23,470 nucleotides of DNA from a virus, in IMG/VR virus record IMGVR_UViG_3300032223_002287, positions 1 to 23,470 of that record; one strand, 5' to 3'. Positions 1,796 to 22,951 of this stretch are shown piece after piece. Position 1 is the first letter of the stretch. Each line of letters opens with the position of its first letter. The translations under genes were made by a program, and so were the position numbers. The notes under the pieces were generated by a model. The model was not told the DNA's origin. It saw only the letters and a list, made by a program, of their open reading frames with translations, and did not search any database.

Positions 1796-1959
1796 TCTTC
1801 TCCGTAAATATCTTTCTTCTCTTTACACTTTTCTTTTATAAGGTTCTCTAAAAACTTATAAATAATAATACCTCTCTTATCACAATACCTTTTTAAGATT
1901 TCGTGAGCCTCTTTTGAGATTTTAATGTTTTTTATATCTTTATTATCACTCTGTGACAT
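1792..1959 (-). CDS. 55-aa ribbon-helix-helix-like DNA-binding protein
   Basis: This short reverse-strand gene is the only minus-strand gene I accept here. Reading from ATG at 1959 down to TAA at 1792 gives 55 residues. The middle looks like a CopG/Arc-type ribbon-helix-helix fold: a short strand (KNIKISKEA), helix A (HEILKRYCDKRG) and helix B (IIIYKFLENLIKEKC), then a basic tail and an acidic end (YGED). Such proteins bind inverted repeats as dimers, often at their own promoter. The gene has a TATTTATA box 34 bases upstream on its own strand (1994-2001). Next to that box is a 16-bp palindrome (2000-2015). Its 3' end overlaps the gp15-like gene by four bases, tail to tail. It is divergent from the sheath gene. 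The function as an autoregulator or a switch for the tail operon is inference; the fold call rests on residue pattern only. Confidence 0.65.
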   Translation of the reverse strand: MSQSDNKDIKNIKISKEAHEILKRYCDKRGIIIYKFLENLIKEKCKEKKDIYGED

Positions 1960-1993: not shown

Positions 1994-2001
1994 TATAAAT
2001 A
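1994..2001 (-). promoter_or_regulatory. Phage promoter box for the minus-strand gene
   Basis: On the minus strand this reads TATTTATA followed by TTAAG, 34 bases before the ATG at 1959. It matches the box found upstream of plus-strand transcription units in this window, but in reverse orientation, as expected for a gene on the other strand. On the plus strand the same bases read TATAAATA, the T4 late-promoter sequence, so orientation is ambiguous in isolation. Confidence 0.45.
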
Positions 2002-2015
2002 CTTTTTGAAAAGTA
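2000..2015. repeat. 16-bp palindrome, candidate operator
   Basis: TACTTTT-TG-AAAAGTA: perfect 7-base arms around a two-base centre. It overlaps the upstream edge of the minus-strand promoter box by two bases and lies 23 bases before the sheath box. An inverted repeat at this place is what a ribbon-helix-helix dimer encoded next door would be expected to bind. AT-rich sequence makes chance palindromes more likely, so this is only a candidate. Confidence 0.35.
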
Positions 2016-2038
2016 AAGTTTTTTCATTTATTTACTAA

Positions 2039-2046
2039 TATTTATC
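2039..2046 (+). promoter_or_regulatory. Phage promoter box upstream of the sheath gene
   Basis: TATTTATC, one mismatch from TATTTATA, ends 33 bases before the sheath ATG at 2080. It lies 37 bases from the divergent minus-strand box, so the 120-base intergenic stretch 1960-2079 appears to be a two-way promoter region. Confidence 0.45.
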
Positions 2047-2079
2047 TATAAAATAAATCTTTAACAGAATTTTTAAATA

Positions 2080-5000
2080 ATGGCAACAACTCAAACAAAT
2101 CAAAAAGTATTCGTATCACCGGGAGTATACACTTCAGAGACAGATTTATCATTTGTCGCACAAAGTGTTGGTGTTACTACATTAGGTCTTGTGGGTGAAA
2201 CTTTAAAAGGTCCCGCATTTGAACCAATCTTTATAACTAACTATGATGAATTCCAAGCCTTTTTTGGTGGAACGGAACCAACAAAGTTTGTTAATACACA
2301 AATACCTAAATATGAAGCCGCTTATATTGCAAAATCATATTTACAACAATCTAATCAATTATTTGTAACAAGAATATTAGGTCTATCAGGTTATGATGCC
2401 GGTCCGTCTTGGACTATCAGGGCTAATGCTAATGTTGACCCTTGTACAGTTGGTATATCAGGTAACGGAATACCTATTAGTACTCCTTTTCAATTTAGAA
2501 CTGATATTAACACATTAACAGGTTTAGGAGGACTACCATCTATTATTAGTAATAATCTAAATAAAGAATATAAATTATTTAATGGTTCAACATCAACATT
2601 AAATGATGATTTCTATGAATACATATCATACATATGTAAAGGTTCTACAGGTGCGACTCCGTATAAATCAGCAACAACTGTAATTTTTTATGGTGCTATT
2701 GCCGATTCTGATTATCAATCTATAACTTCATCTTATACTGCTCAAACTAATGTTTATGGTTCAACATCTAATGATATAACAGGTGCAACATTTACTTGTA
2801 ATATTAATGATAATGATTTAGAAGCATCTTATAACGACCCTTGGTATTATGCAAACTTTGATAATAATAATACTAACAATTATACCGGGTATTCTTTCTA
2901 TTATGTAATAACCGATTTGGTTGCAACACAAATAACAGGTGGATTTGATTTTATTGGAAATATTACAGGTAAATATTATATTTTAACCGGAGATTCTTAC
3001 ACAGATTACAATAACCTTGTAATTGCAACTTTACGTTCAAGAGGTATTTCTGAATACAATTCAACTCAACACGGACCAATTTATCAAGTTGATGATATTA
3101 ATAATGTTGTTTTAGATTGTGGTGGTCAATACAGTTGGATTAAGACAGACCCATTCTACACTTTCTTACTATCAGGAACAACTAAAGATAATGTTGATTT
3201 TTCATTTGAGACATCTTTACAACAAACAAGTAGTAAATATATTGGTAAGGTTTTAGGTGGAGATAATTTTGGTAAAACAAGAACTCAAGTTCCTTTATTT
3301 GTTGAGGAGATTTATCCGGGAGCATTAGAATACCTTTATAATAAAGGATACATTCGTGGTTTGAATTGTAATTTAGTTGCGTTAGATAGTGCAAGAAGTT
3401 TAAGTACAACATCAATTGCTTGGAATTTAGAAAAATACACAACACCTATGACTCCATTCTTGGTTTCAGAATTAAGAGGTAGTGAAGTGTTTAAATTATT
3501 TAGATTTGTTTCAATATCTGATGGTACCGCGGCAAATACTGAAATAAAAGTATCAATTACAAACATTTCATTTAACAATCAAACATTTGATGTTTTGGTT
3601 AGAAGTTTTTATGATACTGATACAACTCCGGTTGTTATTGAAAAATTCACAAATTGTAATTTAGATATTAATTCAAATAACTTTATCGCAAAGAAAATAG
3701 GTTCTGTTAACGGTGAGTTTAATTTAATATCAAAATATATAATGGTTGAGATGGCCGACGACTATCCTGCCGAAGCATTACCTTGTGGTTTTTATGGATA
3801 TACTCAAAGACAATACGAGAGTATGGATAATAAATCACCTATACCTGTTTATAAAACAAAATATAATTTTCCTGGTGAAACCATTTATAACCCTCCTTTT
3901 GGAACAACTTCAGGTGGTGATAATGTTATTTCATCCGGAGGTGATAATGTGAGAAGAACTTATTTAGGTTTTTCATCAAAATTAGGTGTGGATGATTCTT
4001 TCCTACAATATAAAGGAAAACAAAATCCGGTAACTAATTTCGCAACCGCAACAGAATCAGACCCTTGGAATTATCAAACTAGAGGTTTCCATATGGATTC
4101 AGGTGCAACTGTTATCACAATATCTAAATCTTATTCAACAAGTGGTGATGTAGCGTTTGATTGTGGTGTTGCTGCTTTCCATAGTGAACCTGAAACACAA
4201 GATAACCCATATTATAATTTATTTTCTAGAAAATTCACAGTTTGTTTCGCAGGTGGATTTGATGGTTGGGATATCTACAGAGAATATAGAACAAACCAAG
4301 ATAGATTCCAACTTGGAGGAAACGGTTATTTAGCGGGAGCTGCTCCATCCACAAGATATCCAACGGCAACCGGAGACGGAATGTTTAAGAAAATTACGGT
4401 AAATCAAAATACTGTTGATTGGGCAAATACCGACTATTACGCATATTTGTTAGGTATTAATACATTCTCAAATCCCGAATCAACAAATATTAATGTGTTT
4501 GCAACAACAGGTATAGATATGATTAATCATGATAATCTTGTTGAAGCCGCAATTAATATGGTTCAATATCAAAGAGCCGATTCAATATATATTGCAACAA
4601 CACCTGATTATCAAATGTTTACACCTGATGCTGGTGATGTAAATAACAACATATTACCAACTGAAGCGGTTGATAATTTAGACCAAACAGGAATTGATTC
4701 AAACTATACCGCAACTTACTATCCTTGGATATTAGTTAGAGATACGGTAAATAATACTCAAATATATCTTCCACCAACCGGTGAAGTTTGTAGAAACTTG
4801 GCATTAACAGATAACATCGCATTCCCTTGGTTCGCATCGGCGGGTTACACAAGAGGTCTTGTTAATTCAGTTAAAGCGAGAACAAAACTAACTCAAGAAG
4901 ATAGAGATATTCTTTATCAAGGTAGAATCAACCCAATCGCCACTTTCTCTGATGTTGGTACCGTAATTTGGGGTAATAAAACACTTCAGATTGCCGACAC

Positions 5001-5319
5001 AGCTCTTAACAGATTAAATGTTAGAAGATTGTTGTTACAAGCAAGAAAACTTATATCAGCAGTTGCGGTTAGATTATTGTTTGAACAAAACGACCAAGTT
5101 GTTAGACAACAATTCTTGGATAGTGTTAACCCAATATTAGATGCGATAAGAAGAGATAGAGGTTTATATGATTTCCGTGTTACGGTTTCTTCTTCAACTG
5201 AAGATTTGGATAGAAATACTCTTAACGGTAAAATCTATCTAAAACCAACTAGAGCACTTGAATTCATTAACATTGAGTTCTTAATTACTCCTACAGGAGC
5301 ATCATTTGAAAATATATAA
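2080..5319 (+). CDS. 18: Contractile tail sheath protein (T4 gp18-like), enlarged
   Basis: A 1079-aa sheath subunit, the outer contractile cylinder of the tail. The N-terminus has the typical opening VSPGVYTSETDLSFVAQSVG with TTLGLVGETLKGPA and a TNYDEFQAFFGGT segment. The C-terminal domain is equally characteristic: YQGRINPIATFSDVGTVIWG at about 945-965, then RLNVRRLLLQARKLIS and FEQNDQVVRQQFLDSVNPIL, ending in a beta strand region. These end domains form the sheath mesh in known sheaths. The middle (about residues 115-900) is much longer than in T4 gp18 (659 aa) and rich in Asn, Thr, Ser and Tyr, consistent with surface-exposed inserted domains. The leader has no Shine-Dalgarno. A hairpin follows 13 bases after the stop. 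Identification is firm; the role of the insertions is unknown. Confidence 0.95.
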   Translation: MATTQTNQKVFVSPGVYTSETDLSFVAQSVGVTTLGLVGETLKGPAFEPIFITNYDEFQAFFGGTEPTKFVNTQIPKYEAAYIAKSYLQQSNQLFVTRILGLSGYDAGPSWTIRANANVDPCTVGISGNGIPISTPFQFRTDINTLTGLGGLPSIISNNLNKEYKLFNGSTSTLNDDFYEYISYICKGSTGATPYKSATTVIFYGAIADSDYQSITSSYTAQTNVYGSTSNDITGATFTCNINDNDLEASYNDPWYYANFDNNNTNNYTGYSFYYVITDLVATQITGGFDFIGNITGKYYILTGDSYTDYNNLVIATLRSRGISEYNSTQHGPIYQVDDINNVVLDCGGQYSWIKTDPFYTFLLSGTTKDNVDFSFETSLQQTSSKYIGKVLGGDNFGKTRTQVPLFVEEIYPGALEYLYNKGYIRGLNCNLVALDSARSLSTTSIAWNLEKYTTPMTPFLVSELRGSEVFKLFRFVSISDGTAANTEIKVSITNISFNNQTFDVLVRSFYDTDTTPVVIEKFTNCNLDINSNNFIAKKIGSVNGEFNLISKYIMVEMADDYPAEALPCGFYGYTQRQYESMDNKSPIPVYKTKYNFPGETIYNPPFGTTSGGDNVISSGGDNVRRTYLGFSSKLGVDDSFLQYKGKQNPVTNFATATESDPWNYQTRGFHMDSGATVITISKSYSTSGDVAFDCGVAAFHSEPETQDNPYYNLFSRKFTVCFAGGFDGWDIYREYRTNQDRFQLGGNGYLAGAAPSTRYPTATGDGMFKKITVNQNTVDWANTDYYAYLLGINTFSNPESTNINVFATTGIDMINHDNLVEAAINMVQYQRADSIYIATTPDYQMFTPDAGDVNNNILPTEAVDNLDQTGIDSNYTATYYPWILVRDTVNNTQIYLPPTGEVCRNLALTDNIAFPWFASAGYTRGLVNSVKARTKLTQEDRDILYQGRINPIATFSDVGTVIWGNKTLQIADTALNRLNVRRLLLQARKLISAVAVRLLFEQNDQVVRQQFLDSVNPILDAIRRDRGLYDFRVTVSSSTEDLDRNTLNGKIYLKPTRALEFINIEFLITPTGASFENI

Positions 5320-5332
5320 TTTTAAAAAATAT

Positions 5333-5364
5333 GATAGGGGGTATTGATTTATCCCCTATCTTTG
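5333..5364 (+). terminator. Hairpin after the sheath gene, probable intrinsic terminator
   Basis: GATAGGGGGTA (5333-5343) pairs with TATCCCCTATC (5350-5360) around a six-base loop, with one G-T pair. It is preceded by a run of A and followed by only three T, so termination may be partial. It directly follows the sheath stop and ends six bases before the start I choose for the next gene (5370). Confidence 0.6.
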
Positions 5365-5369
5365 TAATT

Positions 5370-6197
5370 ATGAAAAAATATATATTAGAAGGTTTTGAAG
5401 ACAGTAGTACTCCGGATATGAAATATTACGCCTTTGATTGGGATGATAACATTGTTTCTATGCCGACAAAGATTATACTTAAAACGGATAATGGTGATGA
5501 GGTTGGGATGGGTACTGAAGATTTTGCGGAACATAGACATGACATAGGAAAAAAAGATATTAAATATAAAGGTGATATTATTGTCGGATATGCTGAAAAT
5601 CCTTTTAGGAATTTTGGAATAAAGGGTGACAAACAATTTTTAATTGATGTTATGAAGGCAAAACCGGGACCGGCATTTAAAGATTTCAGAGAAGCAATAA
5701 ATAATGGTTCAATATTTGCGATAATAACGGCAAGAGGACATAATCCTGAAACAATAAAACAAGCGGTATATAATTATATTGTAAGTGATTTCAACGGGAT
5801 AAGTAAAGATAAGTTGGTTAAAAATTTAAGAAAATATAGGTCATTCGCAGATGAAAGTGATTTAAGTGATAGTGAATTAATTAAATCTTATTTAGAACTT
5901 AATAGATACAACCCCGTTTCTTTTGGTGATGTTAAGGGGGCTGAAAATCCGGAACTTGCAAAAATTGTTGCTATGGATGATTTTGTATCTTATATAAGAA
6001 GTATGGCGGCTTTATTAAATAAGAAGGCATACATTAAAAAAGATTTTGGTAATAAGTTTGAACCTAAAATGCCGACAATAGGTTTTTCAGATGATGATGT
6101 TAGAAATGTGGAAGCAATGAAAAGACACTTTGAAGATAAACCAGATAATATAGTTAAAACTTATTCAACTGCTGGAGGTATTAAAAAAGAATATTAA
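5370..6197 (+). CDS. HAD-superfamily phosphatase-like protein in the tail operon
   Basis: A 275-aa protein when started at ATG 5370 (MKKYILEGFE). An upstream in-frame ATG at 5331 would put the terminator hairpin inside the coding sequence, so I reject it. HAD-like motifs are visible. Motif I is YYAFDWDDNIV, with candidate nucleophile Asp23 and general acid Asp25. Motif II is IFAIITARGHNPE with Thr120, as in the Ser/Thr of HAD enzymes. For the metal-binding acidic motif IV there are two candidates: AMDDF (203-204) and GFSDDDVRN (241-243), the latter more typical. A lysine for motif III cannot be placed with certainty. Such enzymes hydrolyse phosphate esters using an aspartyl-phosphate intermediate; the substrate here is unknown. 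T4 has no such gene between sheath and tube. A nucleic-acid-end, nucleotide or protein phosphatase role would all be guesses. Confidence 0.7.
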   Translation: MKKYILEGFEDSSTPDMKYYAFDWDDNIVSMPTKIILKTDNGDEVGMGTEDFAEHRHDIGKKDIKYKGDIIVGYAENPFRNFGIKGDKQFLIDVMKAKPGPAFKDFREAINNGSIFAIITARGHNPETIKQAVYNYIVSDFNGISKDKLVKNLRKYRSFADESDLSDSELIKSYLELNRYNPVSFGDVKGAENPELAKIVAMDDFVSYIRSMAALLNKKAYIKKDFGNKFEPKMPTIGFSDDDVRNVEAMKRHFEDKPDNIVKTYSTAGGIKKEY

Positions 6198-6223
6198 TTA
6201 ATAACTAAATAATTAAATATTAT

Positions 6224-6245
6224 AACTGGATACTGGAACTGGATA
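6224..6245 (+). repeat. Short direct repeats (three ACTGGA units)
   Basis: ACTGGA occurs at 6225-6230, 6232-6237 and 6238-6243, and AACTGGATA occurs in full at 6224-6232 and 6237-6245. The cluster sits in the 146-base gap between the HAD-like gene and the tail tube gene, about 60 bases before the promoter box at 6304. It stands out because the surrounding sequence is nearly pure A and T. It may be a protein-binding site; no known site is recognised. The rest of this gap shows only AT-rich sequence and the box. Confidence 0.4.
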
Positions 6246-6303
6246 TAATAAGAATATTAAAAATTAAAATAAAAGTAAATAGAAAAAATTTTTACAAAGA
6301 CAC

Positions 6304-6311
6304 TATTTATA
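6304..6311 (+). promoter_or_regulatory. Phage promoter box upstream of the tail tube gene
   Basis: An exact TATTTATA, 32 bases before the tube start at 6344. There is no clear -35 partner upstream, as with the other copies. Confidence 0.5.
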
Positions 6312-6343
6312 AACAATAAACAAATAATTAAATAACACACAAT

Positions 6344-6832
6344 ATGGCCGATTTATTAATGAAAATGCCCATACCGTATGAACCGAAACGTCAGAACCGA
6401 TTCATATTGAGATTTGACTCAAGTTTGGGGATAAATGAATGGTTTGTTGAAAGTACATCAAGACCACATATTCAAATTGGTGCAACTGAAATACCTTTTT
6501 TAAACACTTCTGTATGGGTTGCGGGTAGATTTAACTGGCAAACAATAAATGTTACATTTAGAGACCCAATTGGTCCTTCAGCCGCTCAAGCTCTTATGGA
6601 GTGGGTTCGTTTACACGCCGAATCAGTTACAGGTAGAATGGGATACGCCGCGGGGTATAAAAAAGATGTTGATTTAGAGATGTTGGACCCAACCGGAGTT
6701 GTAGTTGAAAAATGGATTCTTCAAGGTACATTCTTAACTGATGTTAACTTTAATACTTTGGCTTATAACCAAGATGGTTTGGCAACAATTGCGGCTACTT
6801 TAAGAATGGATAGATGTATATTGGTTTACTAA
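6344..6832 (+). CDS. 19: Tail tube protein (T4 gp19-like)
   Basis: A 162-aa protein, almost exactly the length of T4 gp19 (163 aa). It builds the inner tube through which DNA passes, stacked under the sheath. The sequence shows the usual pattern: N-terminal NRFILRFDSSLGINEWFVESTSRPHIQ, then IPFLNTSVWVAGRFNWQTINVTFRDPIGPSAAQALMEW, and a C-terminal WILQGTFLTDVNFNTLAYNQDGLATIAATLRMDRC. These are the alternating strands of the tube beta-sandwich with the conserved Asn/Asp-rich turns. The start is placed at MADLLMKMPIPYEPKRQNRF, which is typical for the family. Sheath and tube are separated by the HAD-like gene, unlike T4, where genes 18 and 19 are adjacent. The gene has its own box upstream and a strong terminator downstream, so it can be transcribed as a single-gene unit, fitting the need for high copy number. 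Confidence 0.95.
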   Translation: MADLLMKMPIPYEPKRQNRFILRFDSSLGINEWFVESTSRPHIQIGATEIPFLNTSVWVAGRFNWQTINVTFRDPIGPSAAQALMEWVRLHAESVTGRMGYAAGYKKDVDLEMLDPTGVVVEKWILQGTFLTDVNFNTLAYNQDGLATIAATLRMDRCILVY

Positions 6833-6855
6833 TATGCTTTATTTAAAATAAATAA

Positions 6856-6863
6856 TACTTATA
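6856..6863 (+). promoter_or_regulatory. Possible variant promoter box inside the tube/hub-assembly gap
   Basis: TACTTATA differs from the TATTTATA box by one base and is followed by TTAA, as is the minus-strand copy. A transcript starting about seven bases downstream would begin inside the left arm of the terminator at 6864-6899 and so could not form the full hairpin. This is suggestive only. Confidence 0.25.
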
Positions 6864-6907
6864 TTAACCGTAGGAAAACTATAAACTTTCTACGGTTAAT
6901 TTTTTTT
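6864..6907 (+). terminator. Strong intrinsic terminator after the tail tube gene
   Basis: TTAACCGTAG (6864-6873) pairs with CTACGGTTAA (6890-6899), extended inward by a G-T and two A-T pairs, and is followed by eight T (6900-6907). The T run ends only two bases before the next start codon at 6910. Confidence 0.8.
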
Positions 6908-6909
6908 AT

Positions 6910-7653
6910 ATGGATAACGAATCAAAACAATACGGACAAGAGAATTTCACATTACCACACGATGTGGTACCATTACCTTCAGGTGGTATTTTTTATAAAA
7001 ACAAAAAATCAGCAATTAAGGTTGGATACTTAACAGCTATGGATGAGAACATCCTAATGGGTGGTGGGGATGATATAACAACAAATCTTTTAAGGTCAAA
7101 AATATATGAACCTGATATGAGGATTGATGATTTATTGGAAGGTGATGTTGAAGCGGTATTAATCTTTTTAAGAAACACGTCTTTTGGACCTGAAATGAAT
7201 GTTAAATTAAAAGACCCATCAACCGGTAAAGAATTTGAAACCCAAGTTGAATTAGATACTCTTTCAATAAAAAAAGGTCAAGAACCAAATTTGGATGGTA
7301 CATTTACTGTAATATTACCAAAATCTCAATCCACTGTTAAATTAAAACTGTTAACATACGGTGAAATTTCACAATTAAATAAAGTTTTTGATAGTTATCC
7401 AAAAGGAAGAACTGTACCGAAAGTAACATTAAAATTACAAAAACAAATTGTTGAATTAGATGGTACGAATGATTTAGGAGTAATTGCTAAATTTGTAGAA
7501 CAAATGCCAATTATGGATTCAAAGTTTATAAAAAACTTTTTAAACGAAAATGAACCAAAATTGGATTTAACTAAAGTTATTATAGCCCCATCAGGAGAAA
7601 AACTAACTGTGAATGTTGGTTTTGGGGTAGAATTCTTTCGCCCTTTCTTCTGA
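6910..7653 (+). CDS. gp26-like baseplate hub assembly protein (upstream part of a frameshift pair)
   Basis: A 247-aa protein. The N-terminus (FTLPHDVVPLPSGGIFY at 13-29, then VGYLTAMDENIL at 38-49 and TTNLLRSKIYEP) matches the layout I know for the T4 baseplate hub-assembly family that includes gp26. That family opens with 'LPS.G..Y', followed by a 'Y.TA..E.IL' motif and helices. The middle has DPSTGKEFETQVELD, a beta hairpin, and the end reads VGFGVEFFRPFF. The position between tube and tape measure fits T4 order (26-51-27-28-29). The start is immediately after a terminator T-run, leaving almost no leader, so expression probably depends on readthrough or on the variant box at 6856. The frame ends in TGA at 7651, and a +1 frame continues from there with a protein-like sequence (next entry). 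Confidence 0.65.
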   Translation: MDNESKQYGQENFTLPHDVVPLPSGGIFYKNKKSAIKVGYLTAMDENILMGGGDDITTNLLRSKIYEPDMRIDDLLEGDVEAVLIFLRNTSFGPEMNVKLKDPSTGKEFETQVELDTLSIKKGQEPNLDGTFTVILPKSQSTVKLKLLTYGEISQLNKVFDSYPKGRTVPKVTLKLQKQIVELDGTNDLGVIAKFVEQMPIMDSKFIKNFLNENEPKLDLTKVIIAPSGEKLTVNVGFGVEFFRPFF

Positions 7654-7792
7654 TTATAGAAAAGGACAATTAGATGAATTTTATTATTTAAATACCTTAT
7701 TAAAAATAACATATTCGGATTTTGAAAAAATGCCAATTTTTATCCGAAAGTATCTGTTAGATAAATGGTTAAAAGAAAATGACAGGGACTAA
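7631..7792 (+). CDS. Out-of-frame extension with no start codon; probable +1 frameshift product of the hub-assembly gene
   Basis: This frame is open from just after a TAG at 7628-7630 to TAA at 7790-7792. It is +1 relative to the gene ending at 7653. From 7652 it encodes 46 residues: DYRKGQLDEFYYLNTLLKITY, then SDFEKMPIFIRKYLLDKWLKENDRD. This is amphipathic and protein-like, and the 'MPI..RKYL..K' end resembles small tail-assembly or chaperone-type phage proteins. There is no ATG, GTG or TTG in frame before the ATG at 7730, which lies in the middle of the helix. The likeliest reading is that ribosomes shift +1 near TTC-TTC-TGA (7645-7653), giving a 293-aa fusion. In T4 the next gene after 26 is 51, so this may be a fused counterpart, but I cannot show homology. 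A sequencing error that split one gene is the main alternative. Confidence 0.55.
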   Translation, partial: NSFALSSDYRKGQLDEFYYLNTLLKITYSDFEKMPIFIRKYLLDKWLKENDRD

Positions 7793-7805
7793 ATTTTTAG
7801 TCCTT
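7784..7805 (+). terminator. Hairpin at the end of the frameshift extension
   Basis: A ten-base-pair stem with one G-T pair: GGACTAAA (7786-7793) pairs with TTTAGTCC (7796-7803), extended by two outer pairs, around a minimal loop. It overlaps the TAA at 7790 and is followed by a broken T-rich stretch and then the promoter box at 7810. The poor T tract makes termination uncertain. Confidence 0.45.
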
Positions 7806-7809
7806 GTTC

Positions 7810-7817
7810 TATTTATA
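7810..7817 (+). promoter_or_regulatory. Phage promoter box upstream of the tape-measure gene
   Basis: An exact TATTTATA followed by TA, 14 bases before the ATG at 7832. It lies just five bases after the preceding hairpin. With a start site about seven bases downstream the mRNA leader would be only a few bases long. Confidence 0.5.
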
Positions 7818-7831
7818 TAAAAAAAGAAATT

Positions 7832-9592: not shown

Positions 9593-9610
9593 TAAATTAA
9601 CTATAACGCT
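9577..9610 (+). terminator. Weak hairpin around the tape-measure stop codon
   Basis: AGCGTTA (9577-9583) and TAACGCT (9604-9610) are exact inverted repeats separated by 20 bases that include five T and the TAA stop. The right arm ends at the first base of the next promoter box. The large loop and lack of a clean T tract make this a low-confidence terminator. Confidence 0.3.
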
Positions 9611-9617
9611 ATTTATA
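9610..9617 (+). promoter_or_regulatory. Phage promoter box upstream of the giant baseplate operon
   Basis: An exact TATTTATA followed by TA, 12 bases before the ATG at 9630. It is the only box seen before the 12-kb run of overlapping baseplate genes, so it may drive all three. Confidence 0.5.
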
Positions 9618-9629
9618 TAATAAAAGAAA

Positions 9630-14675: not shown

Positions 14676-14998
14676 TGGCATTACAATATTATAATAGGTA
14701 TAGTACATTTTTAATAAACGGACAACAAACCGTAGTACCTTTCGTGCAGATACCACAAAAAACAACAGACAAAACATATGTCTATAAAGTTGGAAAAAGT
14801 AGGTTAGATAAGATATCTCAAGAATATTATTCAACACCATTTTTTGGTTGGTTAATTTTACAAGCCAACCCACAATATGGTGGACTTGAAACATATATTC
14901 CCGATGGGGCGATATTGATTATCCCATATCCTTTATTACCTTCTTTACAGGATTATAATGCGGCGTTAAATAATCATTTCTATTACTATGGCAGATAA
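14675..14998 (+). CDS. LysM-like small baseplate protein (gp53-like)
   Basis: A 107-aa protein. Residues about 34-90 (YVYKVGKSRLDKISQEYYSTPFF, then GWLILQANPQYGG and YIPDGAILIIPYP) follow the LysM fold seen in many tail proteins. It has the 'Y.V..G..LD.I....Y' strand and helix, a tryptophan-bearing second helix, and a closing 'P.G..L.IP' strand. In T4-like phages this fold forms the C-terminal part of baseplate wedge protein gp53, and short stand-alone versions (P2 gpX type) also exist. The N-terminal 30 residues (YYNRYSTFLINGQQTVVPF) are not recognised. LysM domains in cell walls bind peptidoglycan, but in baseplates they act mainly in assembly, so a wall-binding role is not assumed. The gene overlaps both neighbours: one base upstream, eleven bases downstream, which supports strict co-translation with the two giant proteins. 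Confidence 0.7.
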   Translation: MALQYYNRYSTFLINGQQTVVPFVQIPQKTTDKTYVYKVGKSRLDKISQEYYSTPFFGWLILQANPQYGGLETYIPDGAILIIPYPLLPSLQDYNAALNNHFYYYGR

Positions 14999-17900
14999 AA
15001 AAATTCAAGGAGATAAAAGTGGGAACATATATGTTGAGTTTGATTATAATAATATAATAATTGTTGACCCCAACAAAGTACAAGATAATCAAGGAAACAT
15101 ATCTGAAAGATTGGTTGACCACGAAGATTTGGTTATGTACGCCAATCTTGAAGCAGAATTATTACCAAGAACAAAACTTGCAATAGGAAGTTCGCCGGAT
15201 AATATAAGAGTAGTTTCAATTGCCAAGATTAATTTCTTATCACCAACAAAAGACGAATATCTAACCACAAATTACTATGACGAATTAACCGGAGAAGGGA
15301 CTATACAAGGTAAAGGACAAAATCAAACACAAAAAGAATATATACCAGCATCAAACGGTTCAAAAGCATACACAAAATTAACCGCAACCAATGAAGGTAA
15401 ATTCGGTTCAATTGATAATGGACTATTGGGTATAACAAGTATATCGGTTAAAATATCATCGTCTTTTATTCCAAGTGTAACTATTGAATTAGAAGATGTT
15501 CAGGGAAGGGCGTTATTTCAATTGGGTGAAAATTCACCATACGCGGCTTTTTTCCACCTACCATATCCACCATTTTATTTAACTTTAAAAGGGTATTACG
15601 GACAGGCAATAAAATACCAATTAAATTTGGAAAAATTTGCGGCAAGATTCAACTCCATGTCCGGTAATTATGGTGTTACTTTAACATTTAAAGGATATAA
15701 GTTTAACATATTAAATGAAATACAAATGGGACATCTTATTGCCGTTCCACACATGTATTCGTCAAAGTTTAATATATCAAATTCAAATCAGGGGCAATCA
15801 CCATCTCAATCTTTACAAAACGCGACTTCACAACAATCTGCAAATATTCCAAATGCTTCAAATAGTAATGGAATTGTTACTCAACAAATGTATGTTGAAA
15901 AAGGGTATCAAAAAATAATTGAGGTTTATGGTGAGTATAAAGCTAAAAATTTAATAGATAAAAATTTTCCGGAATTAACTTTACAACAGTTAATGAATAA
16001 ATTGGAAAATTTTGAAAAAAATATAATTGATAATTTTAAAAAGTCGGATGTTGAACCTTTAACAAATATAAGAAATTATATTGCAAACTTAAAAAGTTTA
16101 TATGAGGAAGTATATGCGGGTATTAATTCTTGGTTTGTTGAAAATTTAAACCCAAATCCGTTTATTGAAAAAGACACTGGGGTTAGATATTATGCGTTTA
16201 AAAATAATACGGACGATACTATAAAAGGGACATTAGAAACTAAATTAGACGGTATTATTAAAACATATAATGAAAAACTTAATTCAAACCCAACTTTAGG
16301 AATTGACGCACCACTAAAGATTGAGAACCCATTATCTATAAAGATAATAACCGCGATAACGACTTCAGATAGAATTGATTGGGTTAAGACAACAACAGAA
16401 CAAACAGGGATTGCTTCACCAACAATTAAAGATGTTGAAAGAGTAATTGAAATTAATGATAAATTATTTAAACCTGCGACGTTACTTAGTTTTAAAAACT
16501 TGATAAATGCAATTGGTGGAGAAACACCATTTATTGCTAGAGGTGATTCTGCAAATGTTATAGAGTTCCTTAACCCTAAATTTTTTCTTTTTGACGGACA
16601 AAATAGGTTTATTGAGATTGTAAATAATATGAATGCAGATGCGACTAAAAAGCTGTCTGAAGTTGAAGATAAATTGACAAGAGAATTAAGGGATAAAATA
16701 GAAGACCCAACAAGTGGTATTGGTTTTAGACCTACGGTTAGAAATATTGTTGCGGTTATTATGGCATCTGCCGAAGGTTTTATTAGGTTACTTGATGATG
16801 TTCACACTAAAGCTTGGGATGTTAGAAATGACCCGGTGAGAAAAAACGCTATTTTAAACAATACATCATCGGCACAAGGCTCAGATACTAAAAATGTTGT
16901 TAATGGTGTGGGTAGCGGTAATATATCGGAGATACCGGTTTATCCTTGGCCTCAATTTTTTGTTGAAACACATGAAGATAAAAAAGGTAAATACCAATTA
17001 AAGTATATTGCTGACCCCGCGATTGTTAATTTAACTAAAGGTTATTTGTATGATAAGTGGCCGGAAGTTGAGTTTGTTGAGGAATATATTAAAGGGTTAA
17101 CTCAAAAATTCACCCCAACCGATTCACCAACCCCTACAAGTATTAAAGATTTTACAAATCTATTAAACATTAACGCAATTGAATTTCCGCAAAGTGATGT
17201 AGACTATTCTAACAAAGAAGAGATTAAGTTTTTCTATGAAATATGGGAAAGACAATTTATGACTTCAAGATATGAGAACTTGGCTAGATTTACTAATAGT
17301 ACTGCGGAGTATAACAATTTAATAAATTTAATAACTGAAGTTGAATCCAAAAACTTATTAACCTCATTAGGACAAAGTAATCCTTATTTGAATTATAAAC
17401 TTAAAAACTTTAACTATACCGCATCAAACTATGTTGATTGGTTAAAACAAATATCTAATTTAAGTACTAGTCAATCTTACATTGATTTTATTAGGGACAT
17501 CTTCGTAACACCATATATAAAAAATTACACCACAAAGTCATTTGATATTTTAAGTACTGAAAACATAGGTGCACAACCATCAACAAAGTTTGATGACACC
17601 GCATTGGATAAGTTGGTACAATCAACTCAAACAAATACACCTAATGTTACTGACTTATATCCTTTTACAGATATTACTTGGTCTAAAACAAACTTATTAT
17701 ATAACACAAAAAACAATAGTACCAATAACCAATATAACACAACTAACGCACTAAAGGTTTATAAACAAAGAAATGTTATTGCAAACTTTACAGATATTAA
17801 TGACTACACAACAAATAGACCTGTAACAAACTTTTCATATCTTACAGTACAAAATCCATTAGTAAATTCACAATCATCTAACTCAACAAGTCAAACAGGA

Positions 17901-20900
17901 TTTCTACCTAATTTTTATGGGGTTAGAGAACCAAAAGATTTTATACCTACTGAAGGATATTGTTATTTTGATGTTCCGACAAATAAAAATATTGCATTTA
18001 TAAATTCATTAACCGGAGACTTACCGATTAAAACAACAACATCAATAATTAATACCCCATTCTTCATAAATGCAATATCTGAAGGTGTTAAAAAATGGAA
18101 ACAAAAAAATGAATATCCGTTTACCGAAGCGGCATACCTTTTTATAAACTCTTTACCTTTAATATCATTAAGAGAGAGATATAAAACAAATGGAACAAAC
18201 TTAAATCAACTTGATTATATGTTTGCATCACTAAAAAAGTTTGGTGCGTTACATAAATTACCATATGCTTGGATATTAAAGATAGGTTCTTTATGGTATA
18301 GATATAAACAAGAAAAAGAAACTAATACCGATATTCTTGGTAATATTTGGAAAGCTGCTGATTATAAAGAGAGTTTTGACCCGATAACAAAGAACCCAAC
18401 AAAAATATATAAACTTGATTTTAATGGCACCACAGGGAATACAATACAATTAGAATATGATGGAGGTACAAATATTGTAGTTCAATCCGGATTTTATCCA
18501 AAATTAATTAATGATTTTAATTATTTTTATAAAGGTAGTGATTTATATTCATCTTATTCGGACTCCGAAATACAAACAAGTATTAATGACGGTTTAAAAC
18601 TTTATAACTTTACACAATCAAATCTTAATGTTAGTCAAAACGGAATACCATTAAAATATATTACTTGGTCTGTGTTATTACCAACAGGTTCAGGGTATTA
18701 TGTTATACCTTCATTCGGAGGACAACAGAACCAAGTTGCCAATTCATTAACAACCCAAACTCAAACAATACCTTCACCATCAACACAAGTTGTATTACCT
18801 GGATATTCAATAACAGGAAACACATCTGTTTATAATGGCTCAATGAGATTATTGTGGGCATCACCTAACTATGGTTATTTTGATGATAGTCAAATAGTTA
18901 AACCATCAACAAATTCATATCTTAATGAAATTTTGGGTGATTCAAATTCATTATCACCATATAAATTATCAAACCAAAACAATTATACAAACATTGAAGA
19001 ATTTTTCTCAATCTTTGAAAAAGAGATATTAGATACTTTTGAGGCCGAGTTTAAGAACTTCTCAAAATCTGTAGATAAAGTTGATTTAACTCCTACAACA
19101 AACTTAAACTACGGACAACAAACCGGAGATATAAATTTAAATTATAAAAACTTCCAATTATTATTTAGGTCTTTAATGATTTTAGATAATATAAAATCGG
19201 GAGAAACCGACGAAACATATTTTTTAAATTCAATTGGAAATCAATTAAGTAATTTTAGTTCAATTATATTAAAGTTTTTAACTTATGATGTAATTTTTAA
19301 ATACGGAAATCCATCAAACTATAATAGATATATATTTGATTCATTTTTACAATATAACCCAAACAATCTTGTTGGATTTAATTTATCAGTACAGACTGCG
19401 GTAAGTAACGGGACACTTGTAAATCCTAAATATTTTGGAACCTATGTTGCAAATAGTTTACCATCAAAAAGTAATTCAACAACTCTAATACAATCTCAAG
19501 CATTATACGGTAATGAATGGAAAGAACTTTATTTAAGAGTTGGATTTTCAACAATACCGGAATTAAAATATGATGACAATGGTTCATACATAACAGATTT
19601 TTTTATAGACAACAATATAGGATTTACCGTTGAAAATATTAAAGATTTATCAACTTTAATTAAAATGTACGCAACACAAAAACTTAAAGACGGTACATTA
19701 AATGCAACAAAGTTTAATAAAACACTTAACACTTATTTAGGAGATTGTACCAAATTACAAAATGATACTTTAAATCAGATTTTAACTAAAATAAGGGCGG
19801 AGTTACCAGATTATCAGGAGGTACCGGAAAAAACGGTAGATTCTAAAGTTACCGGAGAACAACCAAAAGTTAATTTATATGAAAGTTTTAAAGCGTTAAA
19901 TGATAAATGGATATCAGGAAATGATTATAAAATAAAAACATTTTTTGAAGACATTTTATTTTTAGATAGGGCCAGTAGAAATATTGGAGATACTTTATAT
20001 CTTGATATTTTTGATTTAAAAACCATTTTCAATAATACAACATATGATTCAAAAATGAGTGTTTATACATTTATTGCTGGTTTATTGATTAAAAATAATT
20101 TTACAATAATGAATTTACCGGCGTATGTTAATTTCTATAACGTTATTCCGGGTGGAATACCATTCACACAACCGGGAGGTACTTTAGAATTTGCGGATAA
20201 AATGTGGGGAACATTCACAACCGTTGATTATCGTGAGTCCGGACCTAAAATGGTTTGTTTTTTTGTTGGAAGACCTTCAGCGTATCTTGATTTAGAAAAA
20301 AGTAAAAACTTTTTATTTAGAAGTGATGGTATTACATTAGAACGTAATTCAGACAATCCTTTATATGAAACATTGAATGGTAAAAAAGACCACGACAAAT
20401 CTAATGTTTGTGCCGGATTCAGTGTTGATATTGGAATAAGAAATCAAAATGTGTTTTCTAATTTTACTATATCACAAGATAATGGAAAAGGTACCAGTGA
20501 ATCCGTTCAAACTTTGATGAATATGATAGACCAAACAAGCGGAAGAGAAGTGGCAACACAAAACGTTAGTTTGTATAACTATTACAGTCAAAGAAGTTAT
20601 GGTGCCGAAGTTGTTTCATTAGGTAATGCGATGATACAACCAACAATGTATTTTAACTTGAGACACGTACCAATGTTTAATGGACCTTATTTAATTACAG
20701 AAGTAAACCATACAATTACTCCGGGACAATTTCAAACAAAATTTAGTGGAACAAGACAAGGTATTTTTGATTTGCCGGCAATTGATAGTTTTTTACAAAG
20801 TATCAACCAAAATTTGTTAACAAAATTAGAAAAATCCGTATTGTCAAAAGATGATGGAACTCCAAATAGTGGTACAAATAGTGTAACAAATTCTACTAAT

Positions 20901-21905
20901 TCTACTCAAAATGCGAACAATACAAAGGCACCTGAAAATAGTTGTAAGGCAAACACCGCATATGGAAATATAGATGTTTCTGCCGCAACCCAAACAACAA
21001 TAAATGAAAGTGATTTGGCAACAAAAATTAAAAATGCAACTACAGATTCAAATTTAAGAACCGCAATATTTGCGTTATGTTATTTAAGAACATATAAATC
21101 AAATGGATTTAATTCTTTTAATAACAACTATGCAATGGTTTCACTATCTGATGATAGGTATAAATCAAACGCGTCTTCTTACATAAAGAATTATTCTTGT
21201 GTTAATTCGGAAACCGCAAACAAAACGGCATCACTACCTATTGCGAATTTTAAAGATGTTGATACTTTTATTGGGTTTTTAGTTTCAAGAATTAAAGATA
21301 GAAGTAATCAAATTGCAAATGATATTGGATTACATCAATTTTATATTTGTTTGTGGCAAGATATTACGGTAAGTGAATCTAATTTTTCAACAAATAGATA
21401 TACATTATATAAAGAAAGTTATGATAGATTATTAAAAGGTTTATTGTTGGCATCAAATTATGGAATTACACCAACTGTAGATTTGAATAAATTTTTATCC
21501 GGAAAAACATACCAACCACCGGTTACACCAACACCTTCACCACGACCAATAGTTGTACCGACAGGGACAGAAATTTTTGAAATTACTAGAATTAAGAACG
21601 GTGATAACGATGTTAAGGTTATTGTTAAAATAAAACCAAATGTTGGGTCTTGGAAAATATTCCAAAGTGAAGGTCAAATATATTCATCAACGGTTTGTAG
21701 TACTATGGGAACATTAAGTTCTCCAGGTGTAATTAGTGCTGACGAACAACAAATAACTTTTCAACCATACCAAGAGGCTATTGACAGTTGCGATGGTGAT
21801 AATGTTCACGGACAAGTACCGATGAAATTCACTGTATATGCAGACCCAGTACCGTATAGTAATAATCAACAAATATTTAGTTTTCAGAGTATAATAACAG
21901 TTTGA
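14988..21905 (+). CDS. Giant baseplate hub-like protein (2305 aa)
   Basis: The largest gene in the window. A conserved-looking N-terminal domain lies at about 139-260 (LGITSISVKISSSFIPSV, ELEDVQGRALFQLGENSPYA, FFHLPYPPFYLTLKGYYGQA, YGVTLTFKGYKFNILNEIQ). It is followed by a Ser/Asn/Gln linker (261-304). About 1400 residues of Asn/Thr/Tyr-rich sequence with helices follow and are not recognised. A hub-type module appears at about 1750-1935: PKMVCFFVGRPSAYLDLE, DIGIRNQNVFSNFTI, then GNAMIQPTMYFNLRHVPMF and GPYLITEVNHTITPGQFQTKF. This last part matches the strand pattern of gp27/VgrG-like hubs ('G...i.P.m....' then 'G.Y.I..V.H.I..G.F.T'). After a Ser/Thr/Asn linker, residues about 1990-2106 weakly resemble a lysozyme- or glucosaminidase-type fold with an atypical catalytic region. 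A Pro-rich hinge (PPVTPTPSPRP, about 2178) precedes a C-terminal beta domain. The start overlaps the preceding gene by eleven bases. Confidence 0.65.
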   Translation: MADKKIQGDKSGNIYVEFDYNNIIIVDPNKVQDNQGNISERLVDHEDLVMYANLEAELLPRTKLAIGSSPDNIRVVSIAKINFLSPTKDEYLTTNYYDELTGEGTIQGKGQNQTQKEYIPASNGSKAYTKLTATNEGKFGSIDNGLLGITSISVKISSSFIPSVTIELEDVQGRALFQLGENSPYAAFFHLPYPPFYLTLKGYYGQAIKYQLNLEKFAARFNSMSGNYGVTLTFKGYKFNILNEIQMGHLIAVPHMYSSKFNISNSNQGQSPSQSLQNATSQQSANIPNASNSNGIVTQQMYVEKGYQKIIEVYGEYKAKNLIDKNFPELTLQQLMNKLENFEKNIIDNFKKSDVEPLTNIRNYIANLKSLYEEVYAGINSWFVENLNPNPFIEKDTGVRYYAFKNNTDDTIKGTLETKLDGIIKTYNEKLNSNPTLGIDAPLKIENPLSIKIITAITTSDRIDWVKTTTEQTGIASPTIKDVERVIEINDKLFKPATLLSFKNLINAIGGETPFIARGDSANVIEFLNPKFFLFDGQNRFIEIVNNMNADATKKLSEVEDKLTRELRDKIEDPTSGIGFRPTVRNIVAVIMASAEGFIRLLDDVHTKAWDVRNDPVRKNAILNNTSSAQGSDTKNVVNGVGSGNISEIPVYPWPQFFVETHEDKKGKYQLKYIADPAIVNLTKGYLYDKWPEVEFVEEYIKGLTQKFTPTDSPTPTSIKDFTNLLNINAIEFPQSDVDYSNKEEIKFFYEIWERQFMTSRYENLARFTNSTAEYNNLINLITEVESKNLLTSLGQSNPYLNYKLKNFNYTASNYVDWLKQISNLSTSQSYIDFIRDIFVTPYIKNYTTKSFDILSTENIGAQPSTKFDDTALDKLVQSTQTNTPNVTDLYPFTDITWSKTNLLYNTKNNSTNNQYNTTNALKVYKQRNVIANFTDINDYTTNRPVTNFSYLTVQNPLVNSQSSNSTSQTGFLPNFYGVREPKDFIPTEGYCYFDVPTNKNIAFINSLTGDLPIKTTTSIINTPFFINAISEGVKKWKQKNEYPFTEAAYLFINSLPLISLRERYKTNGTNLNQLDYMFASLKKFGALHKLPYAWILKIGSLWYRYKQEKETNTDILGNIWKAADYKESFDPITKNPTKIYKLDFNGTTGNTIQLEYDGGTNIVVQSGFYPKLINDFNYFYKGSDLYSSYSDSEIQTSINDGLKLYNFTQSNLNVSQNGIPLKYITWSVLLPTGSGYYVIPSFGGQQNQVANSLTTQTQTIPSPSTQVVLPGYSITGNTSVYNGSMRLLWASPNYGYFDDSQIVKPSTNSYLNEILGDSNSLSPYKLSNQNNYTNIEEFFSIFEKEILDTFEAEFKNFSKSVDKVDLTPTTNLNYGQQTGDINLNYKNFQLLFRSLMILDNIKSGETDETYFLNSIGNQLSNFSSIILKFLTYDVIFKYGNPSNYNRYIFDSFLQYNPNNLVGFNLSVQTAVSNGTLVNPKYFGTYVANSLPSKSNSTTLIQSQALYGNEWKELYLRVGFSTIPELKYDDNGSYITDFFIDNNIGFTVENIKDLSTLIKMYATQKLKDGTLNATKFNKTLNTYLGDCTKLQNDTLNQILTKIRAELPDYQEVPEKTVDSKVTGEQPKVNLYESFKALNDKWISGNDYKIKTFFEDILFLDRASRNIGDTLYLDIFDLKTIFNNTTYDSKMSVYTFIAGLLIKNNFTIMNLPAYVNFYNVIPGGIPFTQPGGTLEFADKMWGTFTTVDYRESGPKMVCFFVGRPSAYLDLEKSKNFLFRSDGITLERNSDNPLYETLNGKKDHDKSNVCAGFSVDIGIRNQNVFSNFTISQDNGKGTSESVQTLMNMIDQTSGREVATQNVSLYNYYSQRSYGAEVVSLGNAMIQPTMYFNLRHVPMFNGPYLITEVNHTITPGQFQTKFSGTRQGIFDLPAIDSFLQSINQNLLTKLEKSVLSKDDGTPNSGTNSVTNSTNSTQNANNTKAPENSCKANTAYGNIDVSAATQTTINESDLATKIKNATTDSNLRTAIFALCYLRTYKSNGFNSFNNNYAMVSLSDDRYKSNASSYIKNYSCVNSETANKTASLPIANFKDVDTFIGFLVSRIKDRSNQIANDIGLHQFYICLWQDITVSESNFSTNRYTLYKESYDRLLKGLLLASNYGITPTVDLNKFLSGKTYQPPVTPTPSPRPIVVPTGTEIFEITRIKNGDNDVKVIVKIKPNVGSWKIFQSEGQIYSSTVCSTMGTLSSPGVISADEQQITFQPYQEAIDSCDGDNVHGQVPMKFTVYADPVPYSNNQQIFSFQSIITV

Positions 21906-21926
21906 TAATTATTCATAAATGTTAGA

Positions 21927-21934
21927 TATTTATA
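21927..21934 (+). promoter_or_regulatory. Phage promoter box upstream of the 74-aa gene
   Basis: An exact TATTTATA, 13 bases before the ATG at 21948. It overlaps a TATAAATA on the same strand (21931-21938), making a palindromic ATTTATAAAT core. The position matches the other boxes, so I read it in the TATTTATA direction. Confidence 0.5.
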
Positions 21935-21947
21935 AATAAAATATATT

Positions 21948-22172
21948 ATGGACTTAACACAAAAATTAAATAACTATTTAGGAAAACAAGGACAATATTC
22001 GGAACAATCATTAGGTAATGGTAATAAAGAAGTATGTGATTTAGAAACAGGAGATTGTTATGTTGTCAGAGAAAAAGACGGACTTATTGAAAGAGCCGGG
22101 CATCAAGTTACTGCAAACAGAAAAATCAAAGTAGAAACCATTAAAGGTATAAAGCAATTATTAAACGATTAA
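21948..22172 (+). CDS. Hypothetical 74-aa protein
   Basis: A small, soluble, charged protein of unknown function. Visible features are a short amphipathic N-terminus (LTQKLNNYLGKQGQY), a central turn with two cysteines spaced C-x6-C (KEVCDLETGDCYVV, Cys30 and Cys37), and a basic C-terminal helix-like end (NRKIKVETIKGIKQLLND). The two cysteines flanking an acidic turn could form a disulfide or be half of a metal site, but there is no further ligand pair. It is separated from the next gene by only five bases, so the two probably share a transcript started at the box at 21927. No homologue comes to mind; the reading frame is supported by the box, the A/T-rich leader and normal codon use. Confidence 0.75.
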   Translation: MDLTQKLNNYLGKQGQYSEQSLGNGNKEVCDLETGDCYVVREKDGLIERAGHQVTANRKIKVETIKGIKQLLND

Positions 22173-22177
22173 TAAAA

Positions 22178-22834
22178 ATGTCAGTTGAAAAGAAAATTTT
22201 AAGTGAAATAGAAAGATATAAAAGTATCAATAGATACCTTAATGAACAAGGTGTACCACCACCACCTGATTTAGGCGCGGCACCTCCACCAGCACCCGGA
22301 GGAGATGCGGGAGCACCACCACCGGCTCCCGGAGGAGAACCCACAGCAACCACAGGCGCGGAACCTGAACCTATTGATGTTGAGGCAGATGATGACGTTG
22401 AAAAGATAGATGAGAAAGGAAAATCTGAAGAAGGTAAAGAAGATTCTGAAGAATTAGAAGTTACCGATTTAGTTAAATCCCAAGAAAATATTGAAAAGAA
22501 ACAAGAAGAATATTTTAATAATTTGTTTTCACAACTTTCAAACTTGGAATCTAAATTAAAAGATATGGATTCTATTGTTGCAAAACTTAACACTCTTGAA
22601 AATAAAATTGAGAAGTATAGAGAAAAATCTCCACAAGAAAAGTTGGACTTAAGAAAGTACGACTCATATCCTTTTAACCAAAAACTTTCAGATTTTTTTA
22701 ATGACAAACAAGATGAATTTGAAAAAACAGGAAAAACTGATTATGTTTTAACAAGTGATGATGTCACAGATATTTCAGATAGTGAAATTAAGGACACATT
22801 CTTACCAACAGATGATACAGAGTTTACAAATTAA
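22178..22834 (+). CDS. Probable virion-associated protein with Pro/Ala/Gly linker and coiled coil
   Basis: A 218-aa protein of unknown function. In order: an N-terminal helix (KKILSEIERYKSINRYLNEQ), a Pro/Ala/Gly-rich linker at about 26-57 with two near-identical APPPAPGG units, a very acidic stretch (about 58-98, DVEADDDVEKIDEKGKSEEG), a coiled-coil-like heptad region (about 100-150, FNNLFSQLSNLESKLKDMDS), and an acidic C-terminal part ending in DTEFTN. The overall plan, a helix and flexible linker attached to a coiled coil, fits a structural or scaffolding role. The linker DNA is far richer in G and C than its surroundings. It lies five bases after the 74-aa gene and is followed by a strong terminator, so it ends the transcription unit. 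The long antisense open frame covering it is a by-product of its low-complexity composition. Confidence 0.75.
   Translation: MSVEKKILSEIERYKSINRYLNEQGVPPPPDLGAAPPPAPGGDAGAPPPAPGGEPTATTGAEPEPIDVEADDDVEKIDEKGKSEEGKEDSEELEVTDLVKSQENIEKKQEEYFNNLFSQLSNLESKLKDMDSIVAKLNTLENKIEKYREKSPQEKLDLRKYDSYPFNQKLSDFFNDKQDEFEKTGKTDYVLTSDDVTDISDSEIKDTFLPTDDTEFTN
22280..22345 (+). repeat. Imperfect 33-bp tandem repeat encoding APPPAPGG units
   Basis: Two copies in register (22280-22312 and 22313-22345). Each encodes Ala-Pro-Pro-Pro-Ala-Pro-Gly-Gly followed by an acidic residue. The DNA is GC-rich in contrast to the AT-rich genome. Confidence 0.7.
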
Positions 22835-22852
22835 AATAATATTATTTAACTT

Positions 22853-22886
22853 AAAATGGGTATTGCGAAAGTAATACCCATTTTTT
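22853..22886 (+). terminator. Strong intrinsic terminator before the gp32-like gene
   Basis: AAAATGGGTATTGC (22853-22866) pairs with GTAATACCCATTTT (22871-22884) around a GAAA tetraloop (closing C-G), with one internal G-T pair, followed by further T. It separates the 218-aa gene from the next unit. Confidence 0.85.
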
Positions 22887-22901
22887 ATTTGACTAGTTCC
22901 G

Positions 22902-22909
22902 TATTTATG
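22902..22909 (+). promoter_or_regulatory. Possible phage promoter box upstream of the gp32-like gene
   Basis: TATTTATG, one mismatch from the box, ends 42 bases before the ATG at 22952 and 16 bases after the preceding terminator. In T4, gene 32 is also autoregulated at the translational level. No pseudoknot was identified here; the 5' leader (22910-22951) is AT-rich and largely unstructured. Confidence 0.35.
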
Positions 22910-22951
22910 ATTATCTTTATGATATTAATTAACATTTAAAAATTAAAAATT

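Follow-up and report, generated by a model that had tools for sequence, protein, structure and literature searches.

The late promoter of phage T4 is a single 8-letter, −10-like box, TATAAATA, which has no −35 partner, is directional, stands before structural genes and is read by a factor of the gp55 family. This box spans positions −13 to −6. A T has been placed at −13 in a 2010 review (PMC2988020), and the late box of cyanophage S-PM2 has been reported as NATAAATA. For Bacteroidota hosts, the reported consensus is TTTG at −33 and TAHHTTTG at −7, with an A/T-rich stretch near −28 in the promoters of Flavobacterium johnsoniae (PMC6847099), while bacterial TA-led leaderless genes have been described with a TA-rich box about 12 nucleotides (nt) before the start codon that was taken as a promoter (PMC3160421). 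Here we examined TATTTATA, a box that recurs upstream of genes in the complete IMG/VR record IMGVR_UViG_3300032223_002287 (23,470 bases, 31% G+C; hereafter the window), which is probably a genome fragment. Our analysis indicates that TATTTATA is very probably the gp55-type single-box late promoter of a T4-like phage group, carrying two central A-to-T changes.

The first-pass annotation of the window had placed exact copies of TATTTATA at 6304, 7810, 9610 and 21927 on the plus strand and at 1994-2001 on the minus strand, 12-34 nt ahead of start codons, and all of these positions are correct. Two more exact copies had escaped it, both on the minus strand: one within a 55-amino-acid (aa) gene (1857-1864) and one that overlaps the 21927 copy as its palindromic partner (21931-21938). 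It had also proposed counting the box and its variants. Over both strands of the whole window these totals are at chance, with 7 exact copies where 7.14 are expected and 133 one-mismatch copies where 131 are, and we dropped global over-representation as evidence. Placement, by comparison, is well above chance. Five of the seven exact copies lie in the correct direction within 60 nt upstream of a gene, which ranks TATTTATA first among 56 words of the same letters; the other 55 have 5% of their copies so placed. Genes in this analysis are longest open reading frames starting with ATG only, and some starts may be wrong.

The placement is conserved at homologous genes. From at least 599 relatives found with the tube protein we took 80 loci, and homologous upstreams were counted where the query start lay within 12 residues, the offset did not exceed 8 and 75 nt of upstream sequence was present, identical upstreams being counted once. 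By this count the box precedes the tail sheath gene in 36/36 cases, the tail tube gene in 64/67 and the 1681-aa gene 9630 in 40/41. The sheath gene (1079 aa, 2080..5319, plus strand; phrog_23, E 1.6e-54) carries ATATTTATC at 2038..2046 (plus), which holds the 7-letter core TATTTAT with one mismatch to TATTTATA; this copy, annotated earlier at 2039, is borne out by TATTTAT at 30-41 nt in all 36 distinct upstreams, only three of which hold the reverse complement. Upstream of the tube gene (162 aa, 6344..6832, plus; phrog_4542, E 4.1e-23), where the box is exact (6304..6311, plus), the core occurs at 77 of 79 related loci and its reverse complement at 5 of 79, one of the 80 loci (L017) having been set aside because it had no upstream sequence. 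The exact box of gene 9630 (9610..9617, plus) recurs at 13-17 nt in its homologs. Exact boxes also precede the 586-aa gene 7832 (7810..7817, plus; a probable tape measure gene, judged by position) and the 74-aa gene 21948 (21927..21934, plus), with the box in 4/4 start-aligned homologs of the former and 4/4 homologs of the latter. On the minus strand, the exact box at 1994..2001 serves the 55-aa gene, whose homologs have TATTTAT upstream in four of five cases, two of them at the identical distance of 35 nt. In all, 144 of 358 distinct upstreams from the tube loci and the window contain TATTTATA, against 28 with its reverse complement. Operon-internal genes seldom have it (gene 14988, 0/24; gene 755, 1/24; gene 14675, 3/28; gene 22178, 0/3), and two other window genes show it in 0/4 (gene 333) and 2/6 (gene 5331) homologs. 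Placement and strand asymmetry in relatives thus uphold the earlier proposal of a directional signal over AT-rich chance, and comparative sequence evidence indicates that the box is real. Of the seven transcription units first assigned to it, six stand, because the copy before the gp32-like gene lacks conservation and overlaps a host-type promoter.

The ranking of TATTTATA among the 56 words of its letters, taken within 60 nt upstream of genes, was also made for genome-scale relatives, namely the Flavobacterium phage Immuto, which is in culture, and six contigs of 50-322 kb. It ranked first or second in each of these seven, which answers the doubt whether enrichment upstream of genes would hold genome-wide; the words that tie with or outrank it, ATATTTAT and TATATTTA, represent the same motif in shifted form. 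In one contig (G001), where intergenic DNA makes up 3% of the length, 17 of 24 copies are intergenic. The identical pipeline ranks TATAAATA 1/56 in T4, with 22 upstream hits, and therefore detects a known late promoter; TATAAATA itself ranks 5/56 in relative G004 and 30/56 in the phage Mel-JY01. The first-pass annotation had called the new box the reverse complement of the T4 one. This is literally true and yet misleading, since a comparison in one frame shows TATTTATA to differ from TATAAATA at two central letters, where the A of T4 at about −10 and −9 is replaced by T (AA to TT), while the outer letters are identical. We rejected a promoter of T4 type read from the opposite strand, as homologous genes hold the box in the sense direction, most clearly at the sheath gene.

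The spacing between box and gene is two-peaked. Among 863 upstreams of six relatives, the distance from the TATTTAT core to ATG is 4, 5 or 6 nt in 25, 28 and 12 cases, that is, 65 boxes against 6 reverse-complement copies; none lies at 0-3 nt, and a second peak of 88 boxes falls 13-18 nt before ATG. Aligning upstreams on the box, the motif building suggested earlier, gives [A/G]TATTTATA-WWW-AAA, where AAA at positions 11-13 of the leadered class takes the place of ATG in the short class. The upstream profile holds no −35 element, in agreement with the original observation, only a stretch 14-17 nt upstream of the box where G+C falls to 10-18% from 28-29% elsewhere. Shine-Dalgarno-like letters accompany just 12 of 182 box genes in the relatives and Immuto. 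Such spacing, with its zero at 0-3 nt, fits a fixed transcription start and leaderless or very short-leader mRNAs. Combined with T4 geometry, it would put the RNA start 5-7 nt past the core, to within one or two bases, and the short class would then yield leaderless mRNAs.

Orthologs often share the short spacing. The gene adjoining the sigma gene discussed below belongs to the short class in G001, G002, G003 and G004, where its N-termini align from residue 1; G005 is the exception. Cross-genome comparison of 69 leaderless-class genes gave 99 pairs, of which 65 aligned from the first five residues in both partners and 44 had the partner in the same class, so the predicted arrangement is common but not fixed among orthologs. 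In F. johnsoniae, 87% of predicted transcripts are reported to have a leader of more than 10 nt (PMC6847099). If the predicted class is true, these phages would make start-codon-first mRNAs in hosts whose transcripts mostly have leaders. The TA-led leaderless genes of bacteria resemble this class in having a promoter-like, TA-rich box close to the start codon (PMC3160421), whereas here the box is phage-specific and the class is one of two.

A candidate reader is encoded by the relatives. The PHROG late sigma family, phrog_234, finds a single protein of 224-249 aa in each of the five largest relative contigs searched (G001-G005, 70-322 kb) and in Immuto, and also has matches in G007 and G012. 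Those of G001-G005 and Immuto are one orthologous protein, 57-64% identical to that of G003 in the contigs and 23% in Immuto. In an alignment of 40 sigma loci, hand-picked for spread from 160, 39 members match phrog_234 (E up to 1) and 24 match Sigma70_r2 at permissive limits. A profile of this family searched against the whole T4 genome finds gene 55 as its only match (E 0.0015), and it recovers full-length homologs in Mel-JY01 (1.3e-36) and the 484-kb phage LR756508 (8.5e-41). Comparing it by profile with eight gp55s, namely T4's and seven hand-picked from 40 listed (the promoter was examined for T4 alone), gave a probability of 92.9 and E 3.8e-7 in a single pairwise test, and against the Protein Data Bank (PDB) its only match is gp55, a weak one (E 0.08). 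An AlphaFold2 model of the sigma (mean predicted local distance difference test score, pLDDT, 78; predicted template modelling score, pTM, 0.44) aligns best with sigma factors and superposes on gp55 of the T4 late complex (7d7c_F) with Z 10.4 and a root-mean-square deviation of 6.0 over 120 residues; a Z of about 10 is not decisive alone for helical proteins. From sequence profiles and the model, the relatives' protein appears to have sigma region 2 homology and a gp55-type fold. The suggested search for a gp55-like sigma has thus turned up a diverged family member in relatives, outside the 23 kb of the fragment, and the window's own phage presumably encodes one beyond its ends. The idea of a phage-specific sigma-like factor reading a single-box promoter gains comparative support, with the factor seen only in relatives.

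We therefore propose that a phage-encoded sigma of the gp55 family would join host RNA polymerase and read TATTTATA on the non-template strand as an extended −10 element. The −35 box is absent, leaving only the short A/T-rich stretch upstream, and RNA would begin about 5-7 nt past the core. In the short class the start codon would lie at this predicted RNA start; other genes would carry leaders of about 8-12 nt, longer ones at the tube and sheath genes. That the relatives' gp55-like protein is the reader, and that the box genes are expressed late, both seem likely. The parallel with T4 includes the single directional box, the missing −35 element, the structural genes downstream and the factor family; the box sequence of T4 (TATAAATA) and of the cyanophage (NATAAATA) is replaced by TATTTATA, and many start codons here lie at the predicted RNA start.

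The residues that contact the box were compared with the T4 complex, in which Y97 is reported to stack on the −12 A, N13 and H95 to hold the −9 A and T99 to hold the −8 A (PMC7892883). Relative to the T4 box, TATTTATA has the same A at −12 and at −8 and differs at −10 and −9. At the Y97 position all 40 aligned sigmas have Tyr, and at the N13 position, in the −9 pocket, none of the 40 has Asn, which is consistent with a kept −12 and a changed −9. H95 was rejected as a specificity residue, because cyanophage gp55s also have Phe there though they are reported to use NATAAATA. The pocket pattern is thus a lead, not proof.

Additionally, the relatives' sigma has a C-terminal domain of about 95 aa that T4 gp55 lacks. 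Sigma70_r4 was absent among the 25 of 30 Pfam families listed for the sigma family. The domain is modelled with a mean pLDDT of 80.8; structure comparison of the domain alone gave no clear fold and no sigma-4 match, and its profile found no convincing match in the PDB. Alignments of the whole model to sigmaE extend to residue 245. A further departure from T4 is that the gp33 and gp45 families went undetected in relatives beyond one weak gp33 match. For gp33 (phrog_254), that match was in G001 (E 0.008) among 16 non-T4 records, where a diverged gp33 could be missed. The gp45 clamp families phrog_223 and PF02916 matched in T4 only, in a search that a diverged clamp could escape; the beta-clamp family PF00712 gave one sub-threshold match. 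PF00476 was matched in Immuto only. Relatives do encode a B-family polymerase and a clamp-loader-like protein, which makes a diverged clamp likely. A side observation concerns the clamp-loader-like frame of 672 aa at about 129244-131061 of G001:C1, whose matches are split by an interval and which ends with the weak gp33-family match. The 2010 review asked why nature has no fused late sigma (PMC2988020). As a speculative possibility, these phages could have an unsplit late sigma, in which a gp55-type domain is joined to a C-terminal domain replacing gp33 as a sigma-4 stand-in, with a re-specified box, no gp33 or clamp tether and many leaderless mRNAs. The data are compatible with this idea and do not demonstrate it.

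Several observations weigh against gp55-type reading of the box. Direct matches of phrog_234 in eight relatives are weak, with per-genome E values of 7e-6 to 0.008; the family gave none in G006, G008-G011, G013, RM378 and Mel-JY01, and at the same loose limit it also matches 7 of 14 control genomes that are unrelated. In LR756508 the sigma family is present, yet none of 49 genes in its 43-kb structural stretch has TATTTAT upstream. At the T99 position Gly is found in 40/40 sigmas although the contacted −8 A is unchanged, and with an aromatic residue at the H95 position in cyanophages too, the pocket residues seem not to track the box cleanly. The RNA starts assigned to these phages are placed by spacing only. 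RM378, a Rhodothermus phage (L327-L333), has a related box, TTATTTAA, with no sigma or reader detectable by sigma-profile search. Its box lies within 80 nt upstream of genes in 28 of 38 genomic copies, in eight cases exactly 6 nt before ATG, and shares with TATTTATA the TATTTA core, the upstream placement and the short spacing; its ends differ. So strong a box in RM378 could mean that TATTTATA is read not by the gp55-like protein but by another phage factor, for instance an activator or an unrelated sigma, all the more as the tie between the gp55-like protein and the box is drawn from sequence. With that protein encoded in all of G001-G005 and Immuto, and with a homolog of it serving a box of this kind in T4, we regard such a reader as very unlikely.

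Nor is it at all likely that host sigma reads the box as a variant of the Bacteroidota −7 element, TAHHTTTG. The shifted form TATATTTA does match that reported element save for the last letter, and the A/T-rich stretch upstream of the box resembles the one described near −28 in F. johnsoniae promoters (PMC6847099); Immuto genes at 60-76 kb, moreover, have TATATTTAGGTAT with an upstream GTTG. The late box, however, has neither the TTTG partner nor the terminal G, and in box genes the T required two positions ahead of the box occurs at background frequency (42% and 35% vs 36%). Host-type promoter and late box meet on one gene in only 7 of 1074 cases (odds ratio 0.38, P 0.014). Mel-JY01, recorded from Microcystis, has the same box, with TATTTATA at rank 2 and ATATTTAT at rank 1 of 56, mostly 30-44 nt from ATG and with Shine-Dalgarno letters at 14 of 20 box genes. 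That phages recorded from hosts of two phyla share one box points to a reader encoded by the phage, and Mel-JY01 having both box and sigma argues against a host signal. An origin in AT-rich chance or in a translation-initiation feature would agree with the whole-window counts; it is extremely improbable given the upstream rank of 1 or 2 in all seven relatives (behind or tied with shifted forms where second), the strong strand asymmetry, and a two-peaked spacing empty at 0-3 nt, which is not expected of a ribosome signal. A gp55-type late promoter remains the reading that we favour. It would provide a readable late-gene code for a large environmental phage group, whose late genes become callable from sequence, and a natural pair, the T4 box with gp55 and TATTTATA with its sigma, as a route to how a sigma pocket changes specificity. 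The additional C-terminal domain of the sigma family, together with the failure to detect gp33, also makes the question of a fused late sigma (PMC2988020) testable. Among the matches listed in our literature search, we found no report of TATTTATA as a phage late promoter; no paper naming Mel-JY01 was found, and the Baltic Flavobacterium phage paper, in the text available (PMC7077304), lacks the words promoter, sigma factor, immuto and transcription.

The gp32-like gene had been given a one-mismatch late box at 22902. TATTTAT precedes none of its five homologs, the place is occupied by a host-type promoter, TTTG-N20-TATCTTTA (22888..22919, plus), and this copy was rejected as a late promoter and put down to chance. 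Its homologs in G001 and G009 have the host-type TTTG / TANNTTTG promoter, including a TTTG / TATNTTTG pair with the G ending intact. The remark that host-type TAnnTTTG elements are missing at the listed genes is accordingly right for the late-box genes, which have neither TTTG nor TAHHTTTG, and wrong for the gp32-like gene. Host-type promoters and the lack of Shine-Dalgarno sites suggest a host of Bacteroidota type for the window's phage. In Immuto (L087), a block of small genes at 60-76 kb has upstream GTTG...TATATTTAGGTAT in common, apparently an early host-type promoter class.

The genes identified in the window are those for tail sheath, tube, baseplate hub and gp32-like proteins, plus a weak baseplate-wedge match. 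Pfam gave zero matches for five window proteins of unknown or weakly known identity, and megablast of the window DNA against named phages gave no match. Upstream of the tube box lies an extra conserved element, AGTAAATAGAAA with an A/T tract (6274..6293, plus), whose form AGT[AC]AA[TG]AGAAA occurs in 59 of 79 tube upstreams and is nearly absent elsewhere in relatives. Immediately before the ATG of the hub gene, a hairpin with a T-run (TTAACCGTAG...CTACGGTTAA, T8) spans 6864-6907, and hub gene homologs have a late box 36-67 nt upstream in 22 of 58 cases, mostly at 54-67 nt; the hairpin could be a terminator or an attenuator within the leader. The 55-aa protein (1792..1959, minus strand) is Arc-like, of the ribbon-helix-helix type (phrog_582, E 6.8e-5), and may be a late regulator. 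Its gene is divergent from the sheath gene, the two late boxes facing away from each other, and the same layout, with the box at 35 nt, is seen in G001 and G004.

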